NCBI RefSeq assembly: GCF_013359755.1
Contig: NZ_JABMCJ010000076.1
Location: 124,001-188,000, forward strand
Direction of reading: 5' to 3'
Source of the DNA: Tardiphaga robiniae
GTDB taxonomy: Bacteria; Pseudomonadota; Alphaproteobacteria; Rhizobiales; Xanthobacteraceae
DNA: 64,000 nt
The position numbers and the translations under genes are program-made. Positions 728-35,948 of this stretch are shown in pieces; position 1 is the stretch's first letter, and each line of letters opens with the position of its first letter. The notes under the pieces are model-generated. The model made no database searches. It was not told where the DNA came from and saw only the letters and a list, made by a program, of their open reading frames with translations.

Positions 728-2326
728 TTACTGGAGCAGCTTGAGCACGCTCTGCTGCGACTGGTTGGCCAGCGCCAGCGCGGACACCGCGATCGACTGC
801 CGGGTCGACAGTGCCTGGCTGTTCGCGGCTTCCTCATTGGTGTCGGCCAGCGTCAGGTTGGACGAACCGGTCTGCAGCACGTTGATCAGGTTCTTGGCGA
901 ACTCCTGACGGATCTGCACGATCGACAGGTTGGAGCCGAGCGCCGAGGCCTGCGCGCGGAGAACCGAGCTGGAGATGTTGAGCGCAGCCAGCGTGTTGTT
1001 CGCCGAGGTATTGTCGAGGAAGTCCGCGCCCTTGGCGAGCTTGCTGAGACCCAGACCTGCCGGCGTCAGGGTCGTGCCGGCGATGTTGAGCGTCGACTTG
1101 CCGGTCTCGTTGAACACCAGCTTGAGCTGATCGCCACCGAGCAGGTTGATGCCGTTGAACGAGGCATCCTGCGACGTGGTCGTGATCTGATCGATGATGT
1201 TGTTGTACTGCGCAACGAGATTGGCGCGCGAGGTCTGCGACGCGAAGTCCTGAACCGGAGTGCTCGGCACCAGGCCATTGAACAGCTTGCCGACGGCCGC
1301 GGCTGTGCCGCCAATGGCGCCGATGGTCGACGAGGCCGCATCGTTGGACGTCTGGATGGTCATGAAGCCGGCGGGATCGATGACGGCTTGCAGGTTGTTC
1401 GGCGCCAGCGCGGCGTTGAGCTGCGCCAGGGTAGAGACCTGGCCGCTCGCGGTACCGAAGGTGATGTTCGTCGCGGTGCTCGACGGATTGGTCGCCGCAA
1501 TCGTCAGCGTCAGCGCCGGCGGACCACCCAGGGCGGTCGGACCTGAGGTCCGCGCCTGGGTCACCGACGTACCCAGGCCGAGCCCGGCGAGTGCGGCGGT
1601 GTTCGAGCTCGTGATCGACAGATCGGAAGCCGCACCCGTGTGCAGCGTGATCGCGCCGATGGGCGCTGCCGCGTTGACTGCAGAGCCCGCACCACCCGAC
1701 AGCGCATCGATCTTGCCCAGCAGCGTAGCGACGGTGTCCGTGATGTTGATTTCGTTGGCGCCCGACGCGCCCGAAGCTCTGAAGGTCAGGCTCTGACCGT
1801 TGACGGTGATGGTGTCGTTCGCCGCGAAGCTGGTAGCAATCGAGTCGGTGGCGGCAAGACCCGACAGCAGCGTGGCGCCGGTGATGGCAGCGGCATTCTT
1901 GTTGTTCGCGACAGTGCCGACATAGGTGTTGTCGGTCTTCGTGGATGTACCCAGCAGGTTGTCGGCGGTCGCACCGGGATTGATCGGCGTCGTGAACGAC
2001 GACTTGGCGTTATAGCCGACCGGAATCTGCAGCGCCTGGTTGGCGATCGATTTCGCGGTATCGACCAGCTTCTGCAGCGAGGTGATGCCGGTGTTGGCCG
2101 CCTGCAACACCTGCACGCCGTTGCCGATGCCATCGAGCAGGCTGTTGATGTCGCCGGCGCGGCTGTCGAGCCCTGCTGCCGTGAAGAAGTTCGTGGGGTT
2201 GTCGAGCGCGGTGTTGACCTTCTTGCCGGTCGCAAGACGGTTCTGCGTCGTGGACAAGAGGTCCGCGGTCGACTGCAACGACAGCAGGTTCTGGCGAACC
2301 GAAGCCGATAGAACGATGCCTGACAT
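728..2326 (-). CDS. Flagellin (distal copy)
   Basis: A 532-residue flagellin, the filament subunit exported by the flagellar type III system. The conserved N-terminal D0/D1 segment (residues about 1-140, starting MSGIVLSASVRQ, with LSTTQNRLATGKKVN) and the C-terminal D1/D0 segment (about 440-532, ending SQQSVLKLLQ) flank a long Ala/Thr/Gly-rich variable middle. The frame is open 20 codons further upstream, but the ATG at 2326 has AGGAAGG before it and matches the neighbouring flagellin. It is a paralog of the gene at 2701-4290, with near-identical ends and a different centre. Its leader carries a CGACC/GGTCG hairpin, and a TTAA array lies about 215 bases upstream. The symbol is left blank because flagellin numbering varies among species. 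Confidence 0.93.
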   Translation of the reverse strand: MSGIVLSASVRQNLLSLQSTADLLSTTQNRLATGKKVNTALDNPTNFFTAAGLDSRAGDINSLLDGIGNGVQVLQAANTGITSLQKLVDTAKSIANQALQIPVGYNAKSSFTTPINPGATADNLLGTSTKTDNTYVGTVANNKNAAAITGATLLSGLAATDSIATSFAANDTITVNGQSLTFRASGASGANEINITDTVATLLGKIDALSGGAGSAVNAAAPIGAITLHTGAASDLSITSSNTAALAGLGLGTSVTQARTSGPTALGGPPALTLTIAATNPSSTATNITFGTASGQVSTLAQLNAALAPNNLQAVIDPAGFMTIQTSNDAASSTIGAIGGTAAAVGKLFNGLVPSTPVQDFASQTSRANLVAQYNNIIDQITTTSQDASFNGINLLGGDQLKLVFNETGKSTLNIAGTTLTPAGLGLSKLAKGADFLDNTSANNTLAALNISSSVLRAQASALGSNLSIVQIRQEFAKNLINVLQTGSSNLTLADTNEEAANSQALSTRQSIAVSALALANQSQQSVLKLLQ

Positions 2327-2354
2327 ATGGAAACCTTCCTGTTCCCCGCGCAGT

Positions 2355-2368
2355 CGACCTTCAGGTCG
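2355..2368 (-). promoter_or_regulatory. Flagellin leader hairpin (possible FlbT target)
   Basis: In the mRNA sense, CGACC-TGAA-GGTCG forms a 5-bp stem 29-42 bases before the ATG. The same stem occurs before the second flagellin. That the hairpin is a translational control element is inferred from the presence of flbT and from the Caulobacter model. Confidence 0.5.
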
Positions 2369-2539
2369 CGCAAGCGCATGGTGCATCTGACGAGACCCGT
2401 CTCGCCGCGATGCTGTCGGTTGAATTTGACGCCCTTCTGGAAGAGGAATCTCGGTCCGCCTTGCGGCAATGCCCGGATTAACGCGGCCGATTCTCGGCCT
2501 ACCTTCTTCCTACTCAGGCCGAATATGACCGACGACCAT

Positions 2540-25114: not shown

Positions 25115-25137
25115 TCAAAAACGATCCCTTGGGGATC
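25115..25137 (-). terminator. Terminator of the Hpt gene
   Basis: GATCCC (25123-25128) and GGGATC (25132-25137) form a stem that overlaps the stop codon. GTTTTTGATT follows on the minus strand. Confidence 0.75.
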
Positions 25138-25513
25138 AGGACCGTTTCAGAAGGACGTCGATCTCCGCCCGCGCCTCGAGAACGGCGTCGGTGAGCGTCA
25201 TCAGGGCCTCAGCGGTATCGCTGCTGTCGCGCAGCGTAGTTTCCAGCCATTCAGCGGCTTCCGTGATGCGGAACGCGCCGACCGCCTGCGCGGAGCCCTT
25301 CAGCTTGTGCGTGAGTTCAGCCGCATCCGCCGGCATTTTGACGATCTTCTCGATCAACTCGCTCGACTGGGCCGCGAACATCGCCAGAACTTCACGTTCC
25401 AGGCTGCTATCGCCCATAGTCATACGTTGAAGGTGGGGGAAATCGATCGGTCCGTCATCGGGAACCAGCGGCGGTGACGGCATCCATTGAATCCGTTCGA
25501 GGTGAAGCGGCAT
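25136..25513 (-). CDS. Single-domain Hpt phosphotransfer protein
   Basis: A 125-residue protein whose C-terminal part is an Hpt four-helix bundle with the phosphorylation motif ELTHKLKGSAQAVGA (H-x-x-K-G-S-A). Hpt proteins pass phosphate between hybrid histidine kinases and response regulators. The start is uncertain: ATGs at 25513 and 25483 are both plausible, and neither has a strong ribosome site. It is divergent from the giant polar-growth protein, with a CtrA-type site between them, which suggests cell-cycle signalling. It is shorter than and unlike ChpT. Confidence 0.78.
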   Translation of the reverse strand: MPLHLERIQWMPSPPLVPDDGPIDFPHLQRMTMGDSSLEREVLAMFAAQSSELIEKIVKMPADAAELTHKLKGSAQAVGAFRITEAAEWLETTLRDSSDTAEALMTLTDAVLEARAEIDVLLKRS

Positions 25514-25701
25514 TGATGATGGCCCAAGTTCCCGCCAACCGAACGATCCGGCTGCGATTTTTTGCAGCCAAACACGGAATTGGTTAACGGAACGTTCTAG
25601 GTACAATCCGCTGGGTTGACGCAGTTTTGACGCAAACTCGCCACGATTGAGGGGCCATTCCGTTTATTTGAGGCGCCACAAGAAGTTACCGCGGGAAGCC
25701 G

Positions 25702-25726
25702 TTAACTATCATTAAGAATGTCTTAA
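25702..25726. promoter_or_regulatory. CtrA-type site between the Hpt gene and the giant protein gene
   Basis: TTAA-GAATGTC-TTAA at 25712-25726 is a perfect TTAA-N7-TTAA site, and a third TTAA lies 6 bases further left at 25702. It is in the 396-base divergent region, about 185 bases from both likely start codons. The rest of this gap shows no other clear element. Confidence 0.55.
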
Positions 25727-25909
25727 CCAGAACCATTTCATTCGCACGACCAAGCCAATAGGATGTTTGCGGAAGTAGCGGACAAGCCGAGCGACCGGCA
25801 GTCCGAAATTCGTCCCGCGGGGTGCACATGGCCAGTCGCCATGCTGCAGGCGGGAACGAATCATGGGGACTTCTGTGTCAGTTGCGTAATCAGGGGGCGT
25901 GGAACGAGC

Positions 25910-28900
25910 ATGGCAAACAACACCAAAAAGGCCAAGGATCCGACCGAAGTCGCGCTCTCTGCCATCCAGGAAGCTCTCAACATCAGTGACCCCGCGCATG
26001 TCGATCGCGATCAACCCGCGATCCGTGCCGACAACGCTCCCATCAATTCATCGCCCGCCGTTGACCTCGACGACAACGCCTTCGACGCACGCATCGCCAA
26101 TGATCGCCCGAGCTTCGAAGCGCAGGACGATCAGCGCTTTGCGCGCCGTCCCGCGAACGATGACCGCGAAACTATCGGCCAGATCCTGCAGGCGCTGCAG
26201 AAGAATCGCCCCGCCCGCAACGTCTATACGCTCGCCACCCTGTTCGCCGGCTTGTGGATCGTCGGCGCAGGCCTGTTGACCGTTGCGTTCCTGCCGTCGC
26301 TGCAGGCCCTGATCGGTCAGGGTTCCGGCGGCACGCTGGCGCTGGCTGGCCTTGCTGCGCTGCTGTTCGCCCCGATCCTGCTGTTTTACTTCCTCGCCAG
26401 CCTCGCCTGGCGCGGCCAGGAAATGCGCCTGATCGCCCAGTCGATGGCACAGGTCGCGATCCGCTTCTCCGAGCCCGAAAGCACGGCCAGCGACTCGATG
26501 GTCACGGTCGGCCAGGCGATCCGCCGCGAAGTCGCCGCGATGGGCGACGGCGTCGAGCGTGCGATTGCGCGTGCCGGCGAACTCGAAACCCTCGTCGCCA
26601 ACGAAGTTTCCGCACTCGAGCGCGCTTACTCTGACAACGAAGTCCGTATCCGCGCGCTGCTGCAGGACATCGCGCATCAGCGCGACAACCTGGTGGGTCA
26701 GGCCGAGCAGGTTCGCTCCGCCATTTCGGGCGTGCAGATCGATCTTCGCCACGACATCGCGCTGATTTCGGACGCCATCGCATCGCGCGTCGACGAAGTC
26801 GCCAAGAGCATCACCGGCGCCCTCGAAGAGCGCGGTGAACACATCACCCGCGCGCTCGGCAATGCCGGCGACAACATGATCCTCGCGCTCGGCGAGCGTG
26901 GTGGCGACCTGCTCGACCGCCTCGAAGAGGCCAGCGCCGAGACGACCCGCGCGGTGCTCGACGCCAGCGAGCGTCTGACGACGAGCCTCAACTTCAAGAC
27001 CGGCCACGTACACGACGAGTTCGTCGATCTCGCCGACCGCGTCCACGAAATGCTCAACGAGCGTATTGACCGCATCACCAGCGAGTTCGAACAGCGTTCG
27101 TCCACGATTGTCGATCGCGTGTCGGACCGCACCGAGCAGGTCCACGACTCGCTGAAGAATTCCAGCGATAGCCTGCTGCTCGAACTCGAGCTGCGTAGCG
27201 GCGACCTCGTCAGCAAGATCGACGATGCCGGCAACCGCCTGGCCAACCAGATCCTCACGTCAGGCGACAAGGCGGGCGAGTCCCTCGACGCCACCGTCAA
27301 CGCGCTGGTGGCCAAGGTCGCGAGCCAGACCGAAACCGCGCACGACACCCTCAGCCTGCAGATGAACGCCTTCGACGAACTAGTGAAGGAACAGGGCTCT
27401 GAGCTGGCCGAGCGTTTCTCGCGCGACAGCGGTACGCTGGGCGCACTGATCACCAAGCACATCTCGGAATTCGACCGCACCGTGAAGACCTTCGGCGGCG
27501 AAGTCGTCGATCGCCTGGGTCAGCGTACGCAGGACATCTCGGAAACGTTGAAGACCTATGTCGATAATTTCGACACCCGCGTTGCGTCCAATGTTGGCGG
27601 CATCACGTCGTCGCTCGACACCCGCCTCGCAGAATTCGAGACCAAATTCGAAGGCCGCGTCGTCAATCTCGATGCGTCGCTCGATAGCAGGATCAAGTCG
27701 TTCGACGAGACCGTCGATGGACGTCTCAAGAGCCTTGAAGAAACGTTTGACGCGCGCGCTCAGTCGGTCACCGCGACCATCGATACGCGTCTTGAAAACC
27801 TCGCATCGACGCTCTCGGAAGGTGCCAATCAGGCCGTCCAGTCGGTCGACGCGCGCCTGACGCATCTGACCACCGCCCTGACCGAAGGCGCGAATCTCGC
27901 AGTCAGCTCGGTCGACGGCCGCCTGACCCACCTGACGACCGCGCTCACGGAAGGCGCCGTGCAGGCGATCCACTCGATCGACGACCGCCTTTCCTACTTC
28001 ACGAGCTCGCTCACCGAAGGCACGACGCAGGCGATCACGGCCATCGACAGCCGCATCAACAACGTTACCGATGCTATCGACAGCCGCAGCACACAGTTCG
28101 CGGATACCATCACTGCACGCTTCCAGACGATCCACGAAGGCATGGAAGGTCGTATCGGCATCGTCGCCGGCGGGATCGAAACCCGCGTCGAACAGTTCGA
28201 GGAACTGCTCGGCTCGCGCATCGAGGCCGTTGCCGGTCGTATCGAAACCTCCGGCCGCACGGCCAGCGACTCGCTCATGGCCCGCGCCGAAGAACTCTCG
28301 ATCGGCATCAAGACCAATGTCGAGGACGCCGAGCGTTCGCTCACGCATCTCATGGTCAATACCAGCGAGACCATTCAGGCTGGCGCCCGCGCCGCGCAGG
28401 AATCCCTCGTGTCGGTCTCGACCGATGTCGGCGCGCAGCTGAAGCTGACGGCGTCCGATATCGAGAGCTCGCTGACCGCCGTCGGCACCACTGCCGCCAC
28501 GGCCATCGTCAACAGCGCCCGCGATGCGCAGGCCACGCTGGTCAATGCGTCTTCGGAAGCCTCGCTGCAGGTGAAGTCACTGTCGGCCGATGTCGAGCGC
28601 ACCCTCACCGCGGCCGGCTCCGCCACCGCAGCCTCGATGCTGTCGGGTGCCCGCGACGCCCAGTCGACCCTGGTCGCCACCTCTTCGGAAGTTGCCAGCC
28701 AGATCCAGTCGCTCTCGGCCGATATCGAACGCACGCTCACTGCCGCCGGCACGGCGACGGCCGACTCGGTCCTGTCTGGCGCCCGCGCCGCGCAGAGCAC
28801 ACTGGTCGCCGCATCGACCGACGCCTCGCAGCAGGTCCGCACCCTTGCGGCCGACGTGGAGCGCACGCTGATCGCCGCCGGCACCGCCAGCGCGGACTCG

Positions 28901-31324
28901 ATCCTGGCCAGCACGCGCAACGTCCAGTCCTCGCTGATCGACGCCTCGACCGAAGCGTCGAACCATGTCCGCAACCTCGCGGCCGATATGGAACGCAGCC
29001 TCACGACAGCCGGCACCGCGACCGCGGAATCGATCGTTGCCGGCGCCCGCGAAGCCCAGAGCACGCTGGTCACGGCGTCTTCCGAGGCATCAAGCCATGT
29101 GAAGTCGCTCTCGATCGACGTGCAGCGCACACTCACCGCGGTCGGCGCCGACACGGCGGCTGCGATTCTCTCGAGCGCTCGCGAAGTGCAGACCTCGCTG
29201 GCAACCTCCTCGGCGGATGCCGCGAACCAGATCAAGGTGATTTCCGCCGACATCGAGCGTTCGCTCTCGAACGTCACCGCCAACACGACCGACAACATCC
29301 AGACCAGTGCGCAGAATGCGCACAACTCGTTGGTCGCCGCCTCGAACGAGATCACCACCAAGATCAAGACCACCTCGTCGGAGATCGAGCGGTCGGTATT
29401 CGCCGCTTCGGGCAGCTTCGGCACCACGATGACCGGCAAGACCGACGAAATCGTCACCTATGTGCAGCAGCAGACCGACCGTCTGTCGCAGATGGTCGAC
29501 GCCAAGCGCGGTTCGCTGGTCGATGCGCTGGGCGCCAAGGCCAATCAGCTCACGGTCGATATCGATCGCGTCACCGCCGACGCGCTCAAGGCGATCGAGA
29601 GCCGCGGCCAGACCTTCTCGCAGACCATGGTCACCAACAGCACAGACGTGGCTCGCGCCATCACCACGGCTGGCGAACTCGCCACCGGTGCGGTCAACAA
29701 GTCGCTGAAGGATCTCGAGCAGAGCTCGCGCACCGCCATCGAGCAGTCGCGTCAGGTCTCGATCACTGCGGTCACGGAGATGCAGGAAACCAGCAAGATC
29801 CTGCGCACCGATACCGTGGCGCTGTTCGAACGCCTGCGTGAAGGCAACATCCTGCTGCAGGAAGTCCTCACCGGCGCGCACGACAATCTCAACTCGCTGG
29901 AGCGCGCTCTGGTCACCCGCGTGGCGGACTTCGTGTCCACCATGAACGATGTGACGTCGCGCAACGGCTTGGCTACCCAGACGTTGGAAGAACAGCTCAC
30001 CGTGTTCACCTCCAAGACCTCGAAGGCCCTGGAAGATCTCGGCTCACTCTCGGGCCAGTTCGAAACCCATGGCCATGCCCTCGTGGATGCCGCGGCTCTG
30101 GTCGAACAGAGCAACCGCACCACGATGTCGTCGGTCGGCGAACGCAAGGCGGCGCTGGAATCGCTGGTCACCACCATCGATCTGCGCACCACCGATCTCG
30201 ATCAGCGCCTCACCCGCTTCACCGGCCTTCTTGATGAATCGCTGGCAGCCGCTGAAGAACGTGCCCGCGACATCGCCCGCGTCGTCGCAGAGACCGCCGG
30301 TCAGGGCTCGGCAGCGATCAGCCGGCAGTTCGAAGCCGTCCGCACCGCCGCGGAAGAAGAACGCCGCGCGACAACGCAAGCCATGAGCGAAATCTACCAG
30401 CAGGGCACGCAGGAAGCCGATGCCATGTTCAAGCAGTCGGCCGACAAGTTCTCGTCGATGGTCGCCAGCATGAAGCAGATGGCTGCCGAAATGCACAACG
30501 AGCTCGAGAGCACCCGCACCGAACTGCGCCGTGGCGTTCTCGACATGCCGCAGGAAGCCGCCGAGAGCACTGCGCAGATGCGCAAGGTGATCGTCGACCA
30601 GATCGAGGCGCTCGCCGAGCTCAACCGCATCGTCGCCCGCCACGGCCGCGGCCTCGACGTGGTCTCGACCAGCCGCACCACCAGCGTGCAGCGTGACGAG
30701 GAGCCGGCGATGGCGATCGCCAGCAGCCGTAGTGAAGCGCGCCACGAGGCTCCGCGTCCGGCCCCGCGCCGCGAGGAGCCGCCTGCCCGTAGCGCAACGA
30801 ACTTGCCGATGCCCGATATCGGTGGTCCTGCGCCGCGTCGCACCGAAGCGCCGTCGGTCGCTCCGGCCAACTCCGACCAGGGCCGTGACGGCTGGCTGTC
30901 GGATCTGCTCGGCCGCGCCGATCACGTCGAGGAAGATCGCACGCCGCCGCGCCGCGCACCGGCTCCGCAGCAGCCTGCAGCCTCGGCCAATCCGCTGGAG
31001 TCGCTGTCGCTCGACATCGGCCGCTTGATGGATCGGACGCTCGCCGCTGAAATGTGGGATCGCTATCAGCGCGGCGAGAGCAAGGCCTTCAGCAAGCGGC
31101 TCTATACGCCCGCCGGCCAGAAGGCTTTCGATGAAGTCGCCCGCAAGTATCGGTCGGACCGCAACTTCAAGGGTACGGTGGATCGCTACATCACCGAGTT
31201 CGAACGCCTGCTCGACGAAGTCGCCCGCGATGAACGCGGCCCGGCAGCGCTGCGCAGCCATCTGACCTCGGAAACCGGTCTGGTCTACACCCTGCTCGCG
31301 CATGCAGCGGGTCGGCTGGGCTAA
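25910..31324 (+). CDS. Giant two-TM coiled-coil repeat protein, Growth Pole Ring (GPR/RgsE)-like
   Basis: A 1804-residue protein. Residues 1-103 are acidic and disordered, then come two membrane helices at about 105-127 and 137-160. A very long helical region with 11-residue periodicity follows to about 1580. A Pro/Arg-rich linker (about 1590-1690) leads to a conserved 90-residue C-terminal helical domain (MWDRYQRGESKAFSKRLYTP to the end). Two internal tandem arrays are present (4 x 22 and 7 x 44 residues). This architecture, with apolipoprotein-like repeats, fits GPR of Agrobacterium and RgsE of Sinorhizobium, which form a ring at the growing pole. ATG at 25910 follows GGAACGAGC. Orthology is inferred from architecture only. 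It has its own terminator. Confidence 0.68.
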   Translation: MANNTKKAKDPTEVALSAIQEALNISDPAHVDRDQPAIRADNAPINSSPAVDLDDNAFDARIANDRPSFEAQDDQRFARRPANDDRETIGQILQALQKNRPARNVYTLATLFAGLWIVGAGLLTVAFLPSLQALIGQGSGGTLALAGLAALLFAPILLFYFLASLAWRGQEMRLIAQSMAQVAIRFSEPESTASDSMVTVGQAIRREVAAMGDGVERAIARAGELETLVANEVSALERAYSDNEVRIRALLQDIAHQRDNLVGQAEQVRSAISGVQIDLRHDIALISDAIASRVDEVAKSITGALEERGEHITRALGNAGDNMILALGERGGDLLDRLEEASAETTRAVLDASERLTTSLNFKTGHVHDEFVDLADRVHEMLNERIDRITSEFEQRSSTIVDRVSDRTEQVHDSLKNSSDSLLLELELRSGDLVSKIDDAGNRLANQILTSGDKAGESLDATVNALVAKVASQTETAHDTLSLQMNAFDELVKEQGSELAERFSRDSGTLGALITKHISEFDRTVKTFGGEVVDRLGQRTQDISETLKTYVDNFDTRVASNVGGITSSLDTRLAEFETKFEGRVVNLDASLDSRIKSFDETVDGRLKSLEETFDARAQSVTATIDTRLENLASTLSEGANQAVQSVDARLTHLTTALTEGANLAVSSVDGRLTHLTTALTEGAVQAIHSIDDRLSYFTSSLTEGTTQAITAIDSRINNVTDAIDSRSTQFADTITARFQTIHEGMEGRIGIVAGGIETRVEQFEELLGSRIEAVAGRIETSGRTASDSLMARAEELSIGIKTNVEDAERSLTHLMVNTSETIQAGARAAQESLVSVSTDVGAQLKLTASDIESSLTAVGTTAATAIVNSARDAQATLVNASSEASLQVKSLSADVERTLTAAGSATAASMLSGARDAQSTLVATSSEVASQIQSLSADIERTLTAAGTATADSVLSGARAAQSTLVAASTDASQQVRTLAADVERTLIAAGTASADSILASTRNVQSSLIDASTEASNHVRNLAADMERSLTTAGTATAESIVAGAREAQSTLVTASSEASSHVKSLSIDVQRTLTAVGADTAAAILSSAREVQTSLATSSADAANQIKVISADIERSLSNVTANTTDNIQTSAQNAHNSLVAASNEITTKIKTTSSEIERSVFAASGSFGTTMTGKTDEIVTYVQQQTDRLSQMVDAKRGSLVDALGAKANQLTVDIDRVTADALKAIESRGQTFSQTMVTNSTDVARAITTAGELATGAVNKSLKDLEQSSRTAIEQSRQVSITAVTEMQETSKILRTDTVALFERLREGNILLQEVLTGAHDNLNSLERALVTRVADFVSTMNDVTSRNGLATQTLEEQLTVFTSKTSKALEDLGSLSGQFETHGHALVDAAALVEQSNRTTMSSVGERKAALESLVTTIDLRTTDLDQRLTRFTGLLDESLAAAEERARDIARVVAETAGQGSAAISRQFEAVRTAAEEERRATTQAMSEIYQQGTQEADAMFKQSADKFSSMVASMKQMAAEMHNELESTRTELRRGVLDMPQEAAESTAQMRKVIVDQIEALAELNRIVARHGRGLDVVSTSRTTSVQRDEEPAMAIASSRSEARHEAPRPAPRREEPPARSATNLPMPDIGGPAPRRTEAPSVAPANSDQGRDGWLSDLLGRADHVEEDRTPPRRAPAPQQPAASANPLESLSLDIGRLMDRTLAAEMWDRYQRGESKAFSKRLYTPAGQKAFDEVARKYRSDRNFKGTVDRYITEFERLLDEVARDERGPAALRSHLTSETGLVYTLLAHAAGRLG
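27788..28051 (+). repeat. In-gene tandem repeat, 4 x 66 bases
   Basis: Four in-phase copies of a 22-residue unit of the form RLTHLTTALTEGANLAVSSV plus two residues. Each copy starts with Arg and keeps TEG (or SEG) at the same place. Twenty-two residues is twice the 11-residue helical period. Confidence 0.85.
28463..29386 (+). repeat. In-gene tandem repeat, 7 x 132 bases
   Basis: Seven in-phase copies of a 44-residue unit beginning ERTLTAAG and ending with SADI or SADV, with no length change in any copy. An eighth copy starts at 29387 and diverges after ERS. Forty-four residues is four 11-residue helical periods. Confidence 0.88.
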
Positions 31325-31890: not shown

Positions 31891-32766
31891 TTATGCGAAC
31901 CCTATGCGTTGGGTGAAGCTGCGCGTCTCGCCCACCGCGATATGCATTACGCCCGGCTTGTCGGCGAACTCGCCGTCAAAATCCACCGGGCTGGCATAGC
32001 CGTACCACGGCTCGATGCAGAGGAATGCAGCCCCGGATGGTTTCGACCAGATGCCAAGTTCGCGAAAGCCTTCCCAGGCGAAGGTGATCGTCGGTCCGCC
32101 AGGCGCGCTATAACTCAGCGACCTGCTGGCGAGATGATCGAAGATCATCGCATCCTTGAGGAACAGCGATTCCGACAGCGCCAGTGCGCCGCCCTGCACC
32201 GGCGATAGTTCTGGCTCCCTCAGCAACAGTCCACCCTCAAGCCGTCTGATCGGCGCCGGCTCAGCATCAGAGAAGATGATCGTATGCGCGCGCTTGTCGG
32301 CGCCATCCGTCAGCGGCCAGTGAAACGCGGGATGCGCACCGATCGAGGCCGGCAGCATCTCGTCGCCAGTGTTGGTCACGGCATAACCGATCACCAGTTC
32401 ATCGCCCTCGATCACATAGGTGACGTCAAGCCGAAACGAGAACGGATATTTCGCCCGGCTGGCGTCATTGTCCGCCAGCGACAGCGCGCAGGATGCAGGT
32501 CCCTGCCCGGTCCAGCTGAAGCGCTGGTCGCGCGCAAAGCCGTGTTGGGTCATTGCATAGACCTGGCCGCGATGGCGCAGCACATCGTCCTTTAGCTTGC
32601 CGACAATCGGAAACAGCAGCGGCGCGTGGCGAGGCCATTCCTCGCCGGCCTGCCAGAGCACCTCATGCCCATGCGCATCCTTCAATGAGCAGAGTTCGGC
32701 ACCAGCGGCCTTGATCGTCGCCGTGACGCGGCCATTGCTGATGGTGAAGCTATCTTGGGTCTCCAT
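31891..32766 (-). CDS. Aldose 1-epimerase family protein (LacX-like)
   Basis: A 291-residue galactose mutarotase-fold protein. Landmarks are FPIVGKLKD near residue 50, ASIGAHPAFHWPL near 150 with the conserved histidine, and CIEPWYGYAS near 255 with the conserved Glu. It likely interconverts sugar anomers, but its sugar is not evident. GGGAGAG precedes the ATG at 32766. It is 31 bases downstream of mlaD and could be on the same transcript; a role in lipid transport is not expected. Confidence 0.83.
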   Translation of the reverse strand: METQDSFTISNGRVTATIKAAGAELCSLKDAHGHEVLWQAGEEWPRHAPLLFPIVGKLKDDVLRHRGQVYAMTQHGFARDQRFSWTGQGPASCALSLADNDASRAKYPFSFRLDVTYVIEGDELVIGYAVTNTGDEMLPASIGAHPAFHWPLTDGADKRAHTIIFSDAEPAPIRRLEGGLLLREPELSPVQGGALALSESLFLKDAMIFDHLASRSLSYSAPGGPTITFAWEGFRELGIWSKPSGAAFLCIEPWYGYASPVDFDGEFADKPGVMHIAVGETRSFTQRIGFA

Positions 32767-32797
32767 CAGCGCTCTCCCTGTATATTCAGACTGGTGT

Positions 32798-33727
32798 CTA
32801 TTGAGCCTGCTGACGACGACGCGGCGGAGCGACAGATGCCGGCGGCGCGGCCGGAGCAGGTGCAGCCGCGGGTGTGCCGCTGCTGGCGCCAAACAACAGG
32901 CGCGTCGGGTTGCGGTCAAGATTGTTCACCGCACGGCTGATATCGGCGAGGGTACGGCGGCCATCGAGCATCAATGCGCCGGAACGCTTGTCGAGGTTCT
33001 CGGTCAGCTCATGGAACGACTTCACGGCCGCAGTCAGCTCACCGCCGTCCTTGCCCCCCGCGAGCGCATCAAGGCCGAGCAGGATATTGTCGGTTCGCGC
33101 AACAACGCTGTCGGCCTTGCCCATGACACCATCGGCTTTGCCCATCACGCTGTCGATCTTCAGCATGATGCCGTCGATTACTTCCGAATTTTTCGCCAGC
33201 GTCGCCGTGAAGGTTTCGACATTCTTCATGGCGCCCTTGAGAGTATCCTGATTGTCGGCGACCAGACGATTGACGTTGTTCAGCGTTGCCCGGATCGATT
33301 CAGAGATATCCCGCAACAGCTCCGGATCGGCCGTCAGGACCGGCACGCCGTCGGTGTCCAGCGGGACCGCGGGCGCAGCTTCATCGCCGCCCTTCAGCGC
33401 GATCGCCGCTACACCCGTGAGCCCCTGAAATTCCAGACCGACCTGCGTGTCCTTGCGAATGGGCGCGATGTTCTCGACCATCGCCAGCGCAACGACGCGC
33501 TTGGGATTGTCGAGCTTCACAGAGACGACCTCGCCGACCCTGATACCATTGAAGTTGACATTGCCGCCGTTGCGCAGGCCCGACGCCGCGCCTTCGAAAA
33601 TGATGCGCAGCGGCGTGCGCTGCGTGGTCGAATGCAGATTCTGGAACCACAACACGAAGCCGAACGCTGCGGCGATCACCGCCAGCGTGAAAATTCCGAT
33701 CAGGACGAAGTTCGCCCGCGTTTCCAT
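32798..33727 (-). CDS. mlaD: MlaD/MCE-domain lipid-binding protein
   Basis: A 309-residue protein with one N-terminal membrane helix (ANFVLIGIFTLAVIAAAFGF). The MCE domain follows (RIIFEGAASGLRNGGNVNFNGIRVGEV). A long helical stretch comes next, and a Pro/Ala-rich tail closes it. MCE proteins form periplasmic hexamers that carry phospholipid to or from an inner-membrane ABC transporter. It is the last gene of mlaE-mlaF-mlaD, starting 19 bases after mlaF. No mlaC or lipoprotein partner is present here. Confidence 0.87.
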   Translation of the reverse strand: METRANFVLIGIFTLAVIAAAFGFVLWFQNLHSTTQRTPLRIIFEGAASGLRNGGNVNFNGIRVGEVVSVKLDNPKRVVALAMVENIAPIRKDTQVGLEFQGLTGVAAIALKGGDEAAPAVPLDTDGVPVLTADPELLRDISESIRATLNNVNRLVADNQDTLKGAMKNVETFTATLAKNSEVIDGIMLKIDSVMGKADGVMGKADSVVARTDNILLGLDALAGGKDGGELTAAVKSFHELTENLDKRSGALMLDGRRTLADISRAVNNLDRNPTRLLFGASSGTPAAAPAPAAPPASVAPPRRRQQAQ

Positions 33728-33746
33728 CAAACCAACTCCAGTACAA

Positions 33747-34559
33747 CTAGCCGATAACAGCGCGTGCGCGCTTGCCGTGGAAATATTCCCGAAGCCAGGG
33801 ATGCTGCGAGGCCAGCATGTCGGCCATCGTTCCCTGCGCGATGATCTTGCCATTACCGAGAACGGCGATCCGGTCGCAGGCTGTATGCAGGCTGTCGAGA
33901 TCATGAGTTACCATGAAAACGGTCAGCCCCAAAGTTCGCTGCAGCGTGCGCACCAATTCGTCGAAATCGCCAGCGCCGATCGGATCGAGACCCGATGTTG
34001 GCTCGTCCAGGAACACGATCTCCGGATCGAGCGCGAGCGCCCGCGCCAGCGCCACGCGCTTGATCATGCCGCCCGAGAGTTCCGACGGATAGCGATCGGC
34101 GACCTCCGGCTTGAGACCAACCATGGTAAGCTTGGCCATGGTGATCTCGTCGAGCAGACGTTCCGAGACCTTGAGATATTCGCGCACCGGAAACTGGATG
34201 TTCTGTCGCACGTTGAGCGACGAGAACAGCGCCCCGTGTTGAAACAGGATACCCCAACGCCGCTCGACTTCGCGGCGTTCCTTGTCGCCGCTGTCGAGAT
34301 CGGTGCCGAACACTTCGATCGTGCCGGAGACCTTTGGGACGAGGCCAATGATCGTGCGCATCAGCACGGACTTGCCGGCGCCGGACGCGCCGACGAAACC
34401 GAGGATTTCGCCGCGCGCCACGTTCAGGTTGAGGCCGTCGAGCACCCGACGGCTGCCGAATGCCACGGTAAGATCGCGCACGCTGATGATCGCATCGGCA
34501 GAGGTGGAGGCGGCAGCCGTCGGCGTCTCAGTAATGGGCATCGCAGTCGTCGAGGTCAT
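33747..34559 (-). CDS. mlaF: MlaF-type ABC transporter ATP-binding protein
   Basis: A 270-residue ATPase with Walker A GASGAGKS at residues 57-64, signature LSGGMIKR, Walker B VFLDEP and the switch histidine in MVTHDL. LSGGM with Met is typical of the MlaF/Ttg2A class. The N-terminal 24 residues are Thr/Ala-rich and may be disordered. It lies 5 bases after mlaE and 19 before mlaD. Confidence 0.9.
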   Translation of the reverse strand: MTSTTAMPITETPTAAASTSADAIISVRDLTVAFGSRRVLDGLNLNVARGEILGFVGASGAGKSVLMRTIIGLVPKVSGTIEVFGTDLDSGDKERREVERRWGILFQHGALFSSLNVRQNIQFPVREYLKVSERLLDEITMAKLTMVGLKPEVADRYPSELSGGMIKRVALARALALDPEIVFLDEPTSGLDPIGAGDFDELVRTLQRTLGLTVFMVTHDLDSLHTACDRIAVLGNGKIIAQGTMADMLASQHPWLREYFHGKRARAVIG

Positions 34560-34564
34560 GGCCG

Positions 34565-35695
34565 TCAGATCCCGATCGTTGCGAAGAAGATCGCGAATAC
34601 GCCATCCATCACGATTACAAAGAAGATCCCCTTCACCACGGACGATGTTGTGTGCTGCCCCAGCGACTCCGCGCTGCCCTGCACGGCAAGGCCTTCGACG
34701 CAGGCCACGATGCCGATCACCATGGCCATCACAGGCGCTTTCACCATGCCGACGATGAAGTGGTTGATCGAAATCGCCTCGCGCAGCCGCGACAGGAATG
34801 ACGATGGATCGACGCCCCCATAGAGCCAGGCGACCAGACCGCCGCCATAGAGCGCAGCCATAGCGCCGAGAAATGCGAGAATGGGCAGCGCCAGCACCAG
34901 CGCCACCATGCGCGGCAGGATCAGAACTTCGATGGCATCGAAGCCCATGGTACGAAGCGCATCGATCTCCTCGCGCATCTTCATGGAGCCGAGTTCGGCT
35001 GTGTAGGCGCTGCCGGACCGGCCGGCGACCATGATCGCCACCAGCAGCACGCCGAGCTCACGCAGCACCAGCACGCCGAGCATATCGACCACGAAGACGT
35101 CGGCGCCGAAGCGGCGAAAATGGAACAGACCCTGCTGGGCAACGATACAGCCGATCAAGAAGGTGATCAGGACCACGATCGGTACTGCGTTCCAGCACAC
35201 CTGCTCCAGGTGATGCACCACCGAGGTGAGCCGGAATTTCGACGGATGCCGCCAGACGCGGAACCAGGCCGCGATCACGGCACCAATCATATCGACCAGC
35301 GCGACGAGGGTTTCCCCGATGCCATAGATATTGCGGCCGATGCCATCGAGCACGGCAGTCAGGGCGCTACCGCTTGCCGGTAACGGGACAGCAGGCTTCA
35401 CGCGGCGGACTTCGTCGACCAGGGTCGCGTAATTCGCCGAGAGGCCTGCGATCTGCGCCTCGTGGCCGCCATTGGTCAGCGCCCGACGCAACCTCTCGAT
35501 CAGCCACGCGCCGAATGTATCCAGCTTGGAGACCTGCGACACGTCGATGAAGATGTTGGGGCGGCTACCGGTCAGCTTCTCGGCCTCGCCGACGAGTTTT
35601 TCGAGCGCGGGGGCAAAACGCGCCGTCCACGACCCAGCCGCGCACAGCGCCAAGCCGTCGCCTTTCGCGATCTGTTCCAGGGTCGGGCCGCTCAA
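34565..35695 (-). CDS. mlaE: MlaE-type ABC transporter permease with N-terminal STAS domain
   Basis: A 376-residue fusion. Residues 1-110 look like a STAS domain (IFIDVSQVSKLDTFGAWLIERL), which in E. coli is the separate protein MlaB. The MlaE permease follows, with five or six helices and the motif ELGSMKMREEIDALRTMGFD. The start is a TTG at 35695 supported by GGGAG 8 bases upstream. The fused domain explains why no mlaB is found. A CtrA-type site lies about 100 bases upstream. Confidence 0.88.
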   Translation of the reverse strand: MSGPTLEQIAKGDGLALCAAGSWTARFAPALEKLVGEAEKLTGSRPNIFIDVSQVSKLDTFGAWLIERLRRALTNGGHEAQIAGLSANYATLVDEVRRVKPAVPLPASGSALTAVLDGIGRNIYGIGETLVALVDMIGAVIAAWFRVWRHPSKFRLTSVVHHLEQVCWNAVPIVVLITFLIGCIVAQQGLFHFRRFGADVFVVDMLGVLVLRELGVLLVAIMVAGRSGSAYTAELGSMKMREEIDALRTMGFDAIEVLILPRMVALVLALPILAFLGAMAALYGGGLVAWLYGGVDPSSFLSRLREAISINHFIVGMVKAPVMAMVIGIVACVEGLAVQGSAESLGQHTTSSVVKGIFFVIVMDGVFAIFFATIGI

Positions 35696-35793
35696 AACAG
35701 GCTCCCGCGGGCGTTCAGTCTGTGCATGAACAAAGTATTAACACGCCCAAATACGTTTCTGAGAAGCCAAGTGAAGCCAACACGTTGCTATGG

Positions 35794-35808
35794 TTAATAT
35801 AGCCTTAA
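35794..35808. promoter_or_regulatory. CtrA-type site before mlaE
   Basis: TTAA-TATAGCC-TTAA is a perfect TTAA-N7-TTAA match in the divergent region between mlaE and the epimerase gene, about 100 bases from mlaE and 140 from the other start. Confidence 0.45.
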
Positions 35809-35948
35809 TCCGCCCTGTCAGACACCGGCATTGCGTCGCAAACAAGTTCACGGCGATCACGTAAACTTATAGACACGCCAATACCCGCCGTTACCGGCAC
35901 AGCCCGAAAGACGCCGCATTGTCCGCATCCGACGCTGCCCCCACCCTA

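Follow-up and report, generated by a model that had tools for sequence, protein, structure and literature searches.

The closest described relatives of the gene studied here are GPR (Atu1348), the growth pole ring protein of Agrobacterium tumefaciens, and RgsE (SMc00190) of Sinorhizobium meliloti. Passages of PMC8262873 describe GPR as a 2115 aa protein with two transmembrane (TM) domains, a long helix and a C terminus that is needed, and report that six GPR foci form a 200-nm ring close to the tip of the growing pole. Loss of GPR results in round cells, and Δgpr cells are spherical (passages of PMC8262873 and PMC9239152). RgsE, according to excerpts of PMC7327166, is a homolog of GPR with 42% identity; it is located in the cytoplasm with membrane anchoring, is associated with a shape defect, and showed two-hybrid contacts with TolQ, RgsA, and RgsS, and S. 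meliloti cells were viable without it. Few structural candidates exist for what restricts growth to a single pole in rod-shaped bacteria that lack MreB, and GPR is among them.

The window, which is the whole 64,000-nucleotide stretch of Tardiphaga robiniae DNA analysed here, carries a gene of this already known family, which is near-universal in its order (Table 1). By the published description, the plan of GPR is the same as that of the T. robiniae protein, and the two were compared via RgsE and that description. The ring has been reported for GPR of Agrobacterium and would be a prediction for the T. robiniae protein.

Table 1. Positions of the gene, its modules and the neighbouring elements in the window.
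Feature	Position	Strand	Basis and remarks
Hpt-domain gene, divergent conserved neighbour	25136..25606	-	PF01627 2.6e-8; synteny; start codon provisional
TTAA-N6-TTAA-N7-TTAA cluster	25702..25727	+	exact CtrA-like full site TTAAGAATGTCTTAAC at 25712-25727
Conserved CATTTC-16-CAATAG, putative promoter	25734..25761	+	77/79 named upstream regions
GPR/RgsE ortholog	25910..31324	+	1804 aa; start common to relatives; RgsE homology
N-terminal conserved segment, residues 1-24, predicted helix 11-23	25910..25981	+	near-invariant in named relatives; model helix, low pLDDT
TM hairpin, residues 103-136 and 141-186	26216..26467	+	hydropathy, model
Juxtamembrane module, residues 197-260 (VGQA-RREV...), start of rod	26498..26689	+	HMM
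11-residue-periodic helical rod, residues 197-1520, 1324 residues, no proline	26498..30469	+	spectrum vs shuffles
66-bp (22-residue) tandem array, 3.4 copies, indel hot spot 1	27810..28036	+	about residues 634-709
132-bp (44-residue) tandem array, 3.7 copies, indel hot spot 2	28584..29071	+	about residues 892-1054
Conserved link module that closes the rod, residues 1521-1579	30470..30646	+	HMM
Pro/Ala/Arg-rich linker, residues 1580-1695	30647..30994	+	sequence
C-terminal domain (C-domain), 108 residues	30995..31318	+	alignment, profile searches; no convincing Pfam/PDB relative

Module plan and relation to RgsE

The mechanical open reading frame runs from 25763 and gives 1853 aa, and the start at 25910 gives 1804 aa. 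A near-identical MANN/MANT...KDPTEVALSAIQEAL segment stood at the same place in 80/80 named loci of the Bradyrhizobium group, and 25910 was therefore taken as the start. The closest named relative was that of Tardiphaga sp. P9-11 (96%). The T. robiniae genome gave a single match to the C-terminal 334 residues, and the whole protein is free of cysteine.

The near-invariant N-terminal segment is followed by a variable stretch, the TM hairpin, a break at a conserved SEPE, and a helix from about residue 200. Two N-terminal TM helices had been proposed in the earlier note on this DNA and were confirmed by hydropathy and by modelling: 19-residue windows above 1.6 occurred in the whole protein only at starts 105-118 and 138-151, and the AlphaFold2 model of residues 1-317 showed helices at 103-136 and 141-186 and an unbroken helix at 200-316, with block mean pLDDT values of 70-96 from residue 201 on. 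Only the local helices were used, because the whole model had a mean pLDDT of 65 and a pTM of 0.26. In the TM region the sole Pfam match was DUF898 (0.0012), below its cut-off.

Three modules were tracked with HMMs across the order, namely the juxtamembrane module (64 positions), the link (59), and the C-domain (108). The juxtamembrane module and the C-domain lay in one open reading frame in 79/80 fetched order loci (78/79 distinct genomes). The exception was a single-contig genome of the same family (G176, locus L117) whose GPR gene is split, by a sequencing error or a real break, into two open reading frames at 2864 and 5376.

The S. meliloti sequence used for comparison (L002:11719-17988, UIJ93612.1, 2089 aa) is annotated 'kinesin', and its record carries a pSymB label that is probably wrong, because the tag SMc00190 is of the chromosomal type. 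It was taken as RgsE because 2089 aa is the published RgsE length (excerpts of PMC7327166). Outside the rod, the C-domain showed 53% identity to RgsE (E 1e-41), and the N-terminal/TM/juxtamembrane region showed 42% identity over 219 residues (E 2e-54). A divergent Hpt-domain gene is the neighbour in both loci. Both proteins have the TM hairpin, the juxtamembrane module, a long rod, the link, the linker, and the C-domain, but RgsE is longer (2089 aa against 1804 aa). Apolipoprotein-like repeats (PF01442), a GPR/RgsE trait, were also present, at 198 bits against a cut-off of 90. Judged by the matches outside the repetitive rod and by the Hpt neighbour, the T. robiniae protein is an ortholog of S. 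meliloti RgsE. The GPR/RgsE-like label given earlier to this gene is therefore upheld outside the rod, with the link to GPR running via RgsE.

Because of the orthology to GPR and RgsE, a polar role in Tardiphaga is most likely. The protein is very probably a scaffold at the growing cell pole that is anchored in the membrane and lies in the cytoplasm, the polar location being a prediction from its relatives. Polar growth was described in the earlier note as little studied in the Bradyrhizobium group, which is roughly right: the available text of PMC11031950 reports polar growth in Bradyrhizobium, and GPR is absent from that text.

The 11-residue rod

Residues 197-1579 contain one proline, at 1547, and none between 197 and 1546. 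The hydrophobicity power of this stretch at exactly 11/3 was 21.2, compared with 0.2 at 7/2; the maximum over four periods reached at most 2.6 in 300 permutations, and the subsampled full spectrum gave at most 5.1 in 20 permutations. The spectral peak was at 3.662 (power 31.7). For the rod alone (1324 residues) it was at 3.664 with a power of 33.4, compared with 3.6 in ten shuffles; RgsE had a weaker peak (14.3). The hydrophobic phase hardly changed between about residues 250 and 1240 and slipped between about 1240 and 1460, so the 11-residue rule is imperfect toward the rod end. With this reservation, the spectrum, the low proline content, and the model helix bear out the very long 11-residue periodic helix reported before. 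Two of eleven positions in the stripe were strongly hydrophobic (77% and 54% VILMF) and the next had 25%, values that are averaged over the phase slip.

The periodicity extends across the order. In all 80 order rods the peak exceeded the maximum of ten shuffles. It lay at 3.63-3.70 in 55/80 rods and at 3.57-3.63 in the other 25, all of which had 800 residues or fewer; therefore all rods above 800 residues are close to 11/3. A straight T. robiniae rod would be about 200 nm long, taking 0.15 nm for each residue. Passages of PMC8262873 state 600 nm for 1,700 helical residues of GPR, which would require about 0.35 nm per residue, whereas an α-helix gives about 255 nm.

Rod length was measured in 79 of 81 Bradyrhizobium-group sequences (T. 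robiniae and 80 named relatives; L059 and L063 were dropped, as they had no C-domain match). The rods had 1192-1544 residues with 22 distinct lengths, and 74/79 sequences and 19/22 lengths fell into one class modulo 11, while the classes modulo 7, 10, and 12 were spread. The RgsE rod (1588 residues, 264 more than in T. robiniae) belongs to the same class. Among the rod indels, 59/62 binned events were multiples of 11 residues, with 44 as the commonest gap length; these events were derived by aligning 78 sequences pairwise with the T. robiniae sequence and binning by 15 residues, so that one event may count repeatedly. Of 97 distinct position/length pairs, 57 were at residues 500-799, 39 at 800-1199, and 1 at 1400-1499, and the indels clustered around the two tandem arrays (66 bp and 132 bp). 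The 11-residue step size is at least partly accounted for by replication slippage or unequal recombination, and selection for phase is not claimed. Among close relatives, rod length would evolve in steps of 11 residues gained or lost, often 44 at a time and mostly within or next to the arrays, and such changes would keep the hydrophobic stripe in phase.

Over the order, rods had 312-2309 residues (n = 80), corresponding to 47-346 nm if straight. Three of the 80 fetched order loci were left out of this set: L117 (split gene), L163 (no link match), and L136 (same genome as L195). Classes 4 and 8 modulo 11 held 42/80 sequences and 36/72 distinct lengths, against 2 of 11 expected. Class 2 is the only one missing, so the rule loses strength in more distant members; the spread would be compatible with shifts by 4 or 7 residues. 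The shortest rods, of 312 and 389 residues, were found at L168 (G013), L190 (G047), and L191 (G111), with peaks at 3.57-3.59, and no MreB was found in these genomes at E ≤ 1e-30.

Proteins of the apolipoprotein A1/A4/E family (PF01442) consist of 11/22-residue amphipathic helix repeats, which make up the protein and are commonly punctuated by proline, and they have no membrane anchor. Their likeness to the T. robiniae protein is the PF01442 match to the rod (1.2e-58). Two PDB sequences were matched at E ≤ 0.001, and both were apolipoprotein A-IV. A better match to an unrelated repeat family had been named beforehand as an outcome against the GPR/RgsE reading; the Pfam apolipoprotein model, human apolipoprotein A-IV, and the ZorA tails found their best matches inside the rod only, and the same holds for all Pfam models above cut-off, the listed ZorA models, and the PDB sequences at E ≤ 0.001. 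The TM hairpin and the C-domain lie outside the best match. An apolipoprotein as whole-protein family is ruled out by the TM hairpin, the linker, and the C-domain that stand besides the rod.

Another reading, favoured by the authors of the GPR work, is that the rod is mainly a lipid-binding apolipoprotein, which forms helical bundles by folding back on itself, either on lipid or at the membrane. The Pfam and PDB matches agree with it, and so do the deletions of A-IV-like regions, which impair function in passages of PMC8262873. However, the T. robiniae rod is nearly proline-free, order rods had no proline in 23/80 and at most two in 77/80, and the stripe with its two strongly hydrophobic positions looks narrow. 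A straight 11/3 helix could still lie on the membrane, so lipid contact is possible. Taken as the main nature of the rod, we consider this reading doubtful, and favour rods that may associate side by side through the stripe.

The C-terminal domain and MreB

In an alignment of 30 members the T. robiniae C-domain showed 24-56% identity to the 29 others from the order, in keeping with the conserved domain noted before. It was found in 194/199 sampled genomes of the order, with one match each. The five genomes without a match were G033, G063, G122, G139, and G188, and a second search at E ≤ 1 returned only G033 (0.889). MreB was likewise not found in these five at E ≤ 1e-30. G033, G063, G122, and G188 are near-complete genomes without C-domain or MreB at the thresholds used. 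The T. robiniae genome had no MreB at E ≤ 1e-30; its three weak PF06723 matches were not taken as MreB, the best being an Hsp70.

MreB (E ≤ 1e-30) was present in 23/199 order genomes, and 23/23 of these also carried the C-domain. Excerpts of the S. meliloti study (PMC7327166) conclude that Rgs homologs and MreB homologs exclude each other, Rgs homologs being absent from four Rhizobiales with MreB. In the present sample of 199 genomes this exclusion fails for the RgsE C-domain, although the two counts are not like for like, because the published search was filtered by length and topology. As every sampled MreB-bearing order genome has the GPR C-domain, GPR was probably not invented simply as a replacement for MreB, and the counts suggest that GPR is older than the loss of MreB.

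Rods in genomes with MreB had 437-888 residues (median 507, n = 19), and those without MreB had 312-2309 residues (median 1324, n = 59, T. robiniae included). An apparent link between short rods and MreB found no support on an rpoB tree of 70 genomes made by a quick method, and it is not claimed. The tree showed 8 changes of MreB and 4 changes of the state 'rod over 900'. Starred branches gave 4 independent pairs and all branches together gave 8, at most 1 of them informative.

Searched through the class at E ≤ 1e-6, the C-domain profile matched 115/289 sampled genomes, 4 of them inside the order. Of the 111 carriers outside the order 80 were tested, and 77 of these have MreB. Distant RgsE homologs have been reported in Emcibacterales and Rhodospirillales (excerpts of PMC7327166). 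In 20 outside loci the C-domain stood at or near the end of the open reading frame, with one or two hydrophobic stretches; the juxtamembrane module gave no match in 12 and weak matches in the same frame in 8 (best 4e-8). In one MreB-bearing genome of another order (G328, locus L297, minus strand), a 377-residue open frame was observed with a C-domain-like end (E 2e-7) and two hydrophobic stretches.

As the C-domain is common in MreB-bearing alphaproteobacteria, polar growth is unlikely as the ancestral role of the whole family. The protein could then be an ancestral alphaproteobacterial envelope scaffold, with a role in the Bradyrhizobium/Tardiphaga group that is not specific to polar growth, as the spread of the C-domain among MreB-bearing genomes inside and outside the order might indicate. 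However, strong matches to the juxtamembrane module are confined to the order, polar growth is the process in which both characterised orthologs take part, and growth of Bradyrhizobium is itself polar (available text of PMC11031950). Such a general envelope role is improbable for the T. robiniae protein, and the polar scaffold remains the preferred reading.

ZorA proteins of the Zorya defence have an N-terminal MotA part and a long membrane-anchored helical tail, and this tail is their likeness to the T. robiniae protein. A ZorA-like MotA/TolQ-family stator with a long tail is highly improbable: the matches (PADLOC ZorA3 1.7e-17; NCBIfam ZorA_1 5.5e-7) have their best stretches, for all listed ZorA models, inside the rod at residues 294-826, start at profile position 270 or later, and score far under the NCBIfam cut-offs (28 against 190 bits; 15 against 500). 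ZorA membership was rejected on the rod-only matches and on the result that no MotA-type (MotA/ExbB/TolQ TM) domain was matched by Pfam in the T. robiniae protein.

The fold of the C-domain gave no close relative, and none is claimed. Its model had a mean pLDDT of 69 on a shallow alignment. Foldseek against the PDB returned nothing (best E 4.9), the profile search against the PDB gave weak matches alone (best 0.0055, a designed protein), and Pfam scans of 30 members gave scattered weak matches (best 0.0027 in one member).

Upstream region, Hpt neighbour and proposed mechanism

Upstream counts were made in up to 400 nt before the start, unanchored, in the 79 named loci with enough DNA (L005 was dropped). 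An exact TTAA-N7-TTAA, the pattern of the CtrA box, was present in 79/79 loci, the triple cluster in 78/79, and CATTTC-16-CAATAG in 77/79. In mononucleotide shuffles, a site with at most one mismatch occurred in 5.6%. The 79 loci are close relatives, yet they have 79 different upstream sequences and their aligned flanks vary. Across the order, 15/81 loci had an exact CtrA-like site against 1.3 expected by Markov resampling, and 53/81 had a site within one mismatch against 13.2 expected. The other 28/81 had no site even with one mismatch, and many MreB-bearing families had none. The scanned stretch upstream of RgsE held only one-mismatch sites, compared with the exact site in T. robiniae. In the T. 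robiniae genome, exact TTAAN7TTAAC occurred 36 times, against 22 for the reversed pattern. GANTC sites were rejected as a candidate signal (46/79 upstream regions, below the shuffle expectation of 78%). A scan of 25480-25920 for σ70 promoters and terminators found neither.

A link between CtrA and GPR was not met in the literature searched, although published CtrA ChIP tables may list the gene. The matched passage of an S. meliloti CtrA paper does not concern the RgsE gene. In RdsA-depleted R. etli the expression of GPR is normal, and the matched passages of PMC9022086 hold no link to CtrA.

The divergent Hpt-domain gene belongs to a neighbourhood outside the published definition of GPR/RgsE. 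A divergent copy was found in 67/81 order loci; as two of the loci are from G016, this makes 66/80 genomes. G029 was left out of the count, its DNA being too short. Of the exceptions, G031 had a match on the same strand, and 13 loci with at least 1.2 kb of upstream DNA had no match. Among the named loci the Hpt gene was divergent in 78/80; L005 and L054, the two without it, held 255 and 381 upstream bases.

From these data the following mechanism is proposed. The hairpin would hold the protein in the inner membrane, with the rod and the C-domain in the cytoplasm. The rods would associate through the hydrophobic stripe to give a polar ring, and the C-domain and the other modules may bring in partners or set their place (TolQ, RgsA, and RgsS in S. 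meliloti), so that wall synthesis would be kept at one pole. Transcription may be timed by CtrA through the candidate box at 25712-25727, a motif match, and the divergent Hpt protein may share the same cell-cycle circuit. Among these proposals, rod association through the stripe would be the firmest, followed by CtrA timing and then by the Hpt partnership.

These parts can be joined into one tentative reading, which is possible but should not be taken as probable. The rod would act as one unbroken ruler or tether, locked in 11-residue phase, that lengthens and shortens by whole units, and short rods (period about 3.57-3.63, with and without MreB) would have approached a purer 11/3 period as they grew longer. 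CtrA would directly time the gene, which would have an Hpt phosphotransfer protein of its own as partner, and assembly of the growth pole would thereby be tied to the cell cycle. If the ruler holds, ring size should scale with rod length. The 11-residue-step indels, the upstream CtrA-like box, the Hpt pairing, and the C-domain in all MreB-bearing order genomes were not met in the literature searched; the paper that turned up on hendecads and polar growth deals with Gram-positive proteins. The rod that changes in unit steps, the CtrA-like box, and the pairing with Hpt deserve further work, and the sequence evidence makes testable the dependence of function and ring size on 11-residue steps, the CtrA timing of the scaffold, and the Hpt partnership.

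Exact CtrA-like sites were also seen elsewhere. Flagellin genes are a typical class of CtrA targets, and in the window two overlapping exact TTAA-N7-TTAAC sites, one per strand, lie at 2540-2565, 154 nt upstream of a flagellin gene (731-2386, minus strand). MCP and Amidase_3/AMIN proteins are plausible CtrA targets, and ten mechanically picked open reading frames downstream of exact sites in the T. robiniae genome included an MCP (L299) and an Amidase_3/AMIN protein (L305), together with enzymes such as an aminotransferase; three had no Pfam match. In S. meliloti, pole selection involves the amidase AmiC (PMC7822825). On the other side of the GPR gene, an aldose-epimerase gene (31894-32919) stands between it and an Mla-type cluster on the minus strand (32801-35695) with MlaD, ABC ATPase, and MlaE permease genes. 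MlaE and a divergent enolase-like gene at 35919 are each about 100 nt away from another exact CtrA-like site (35793-35808).
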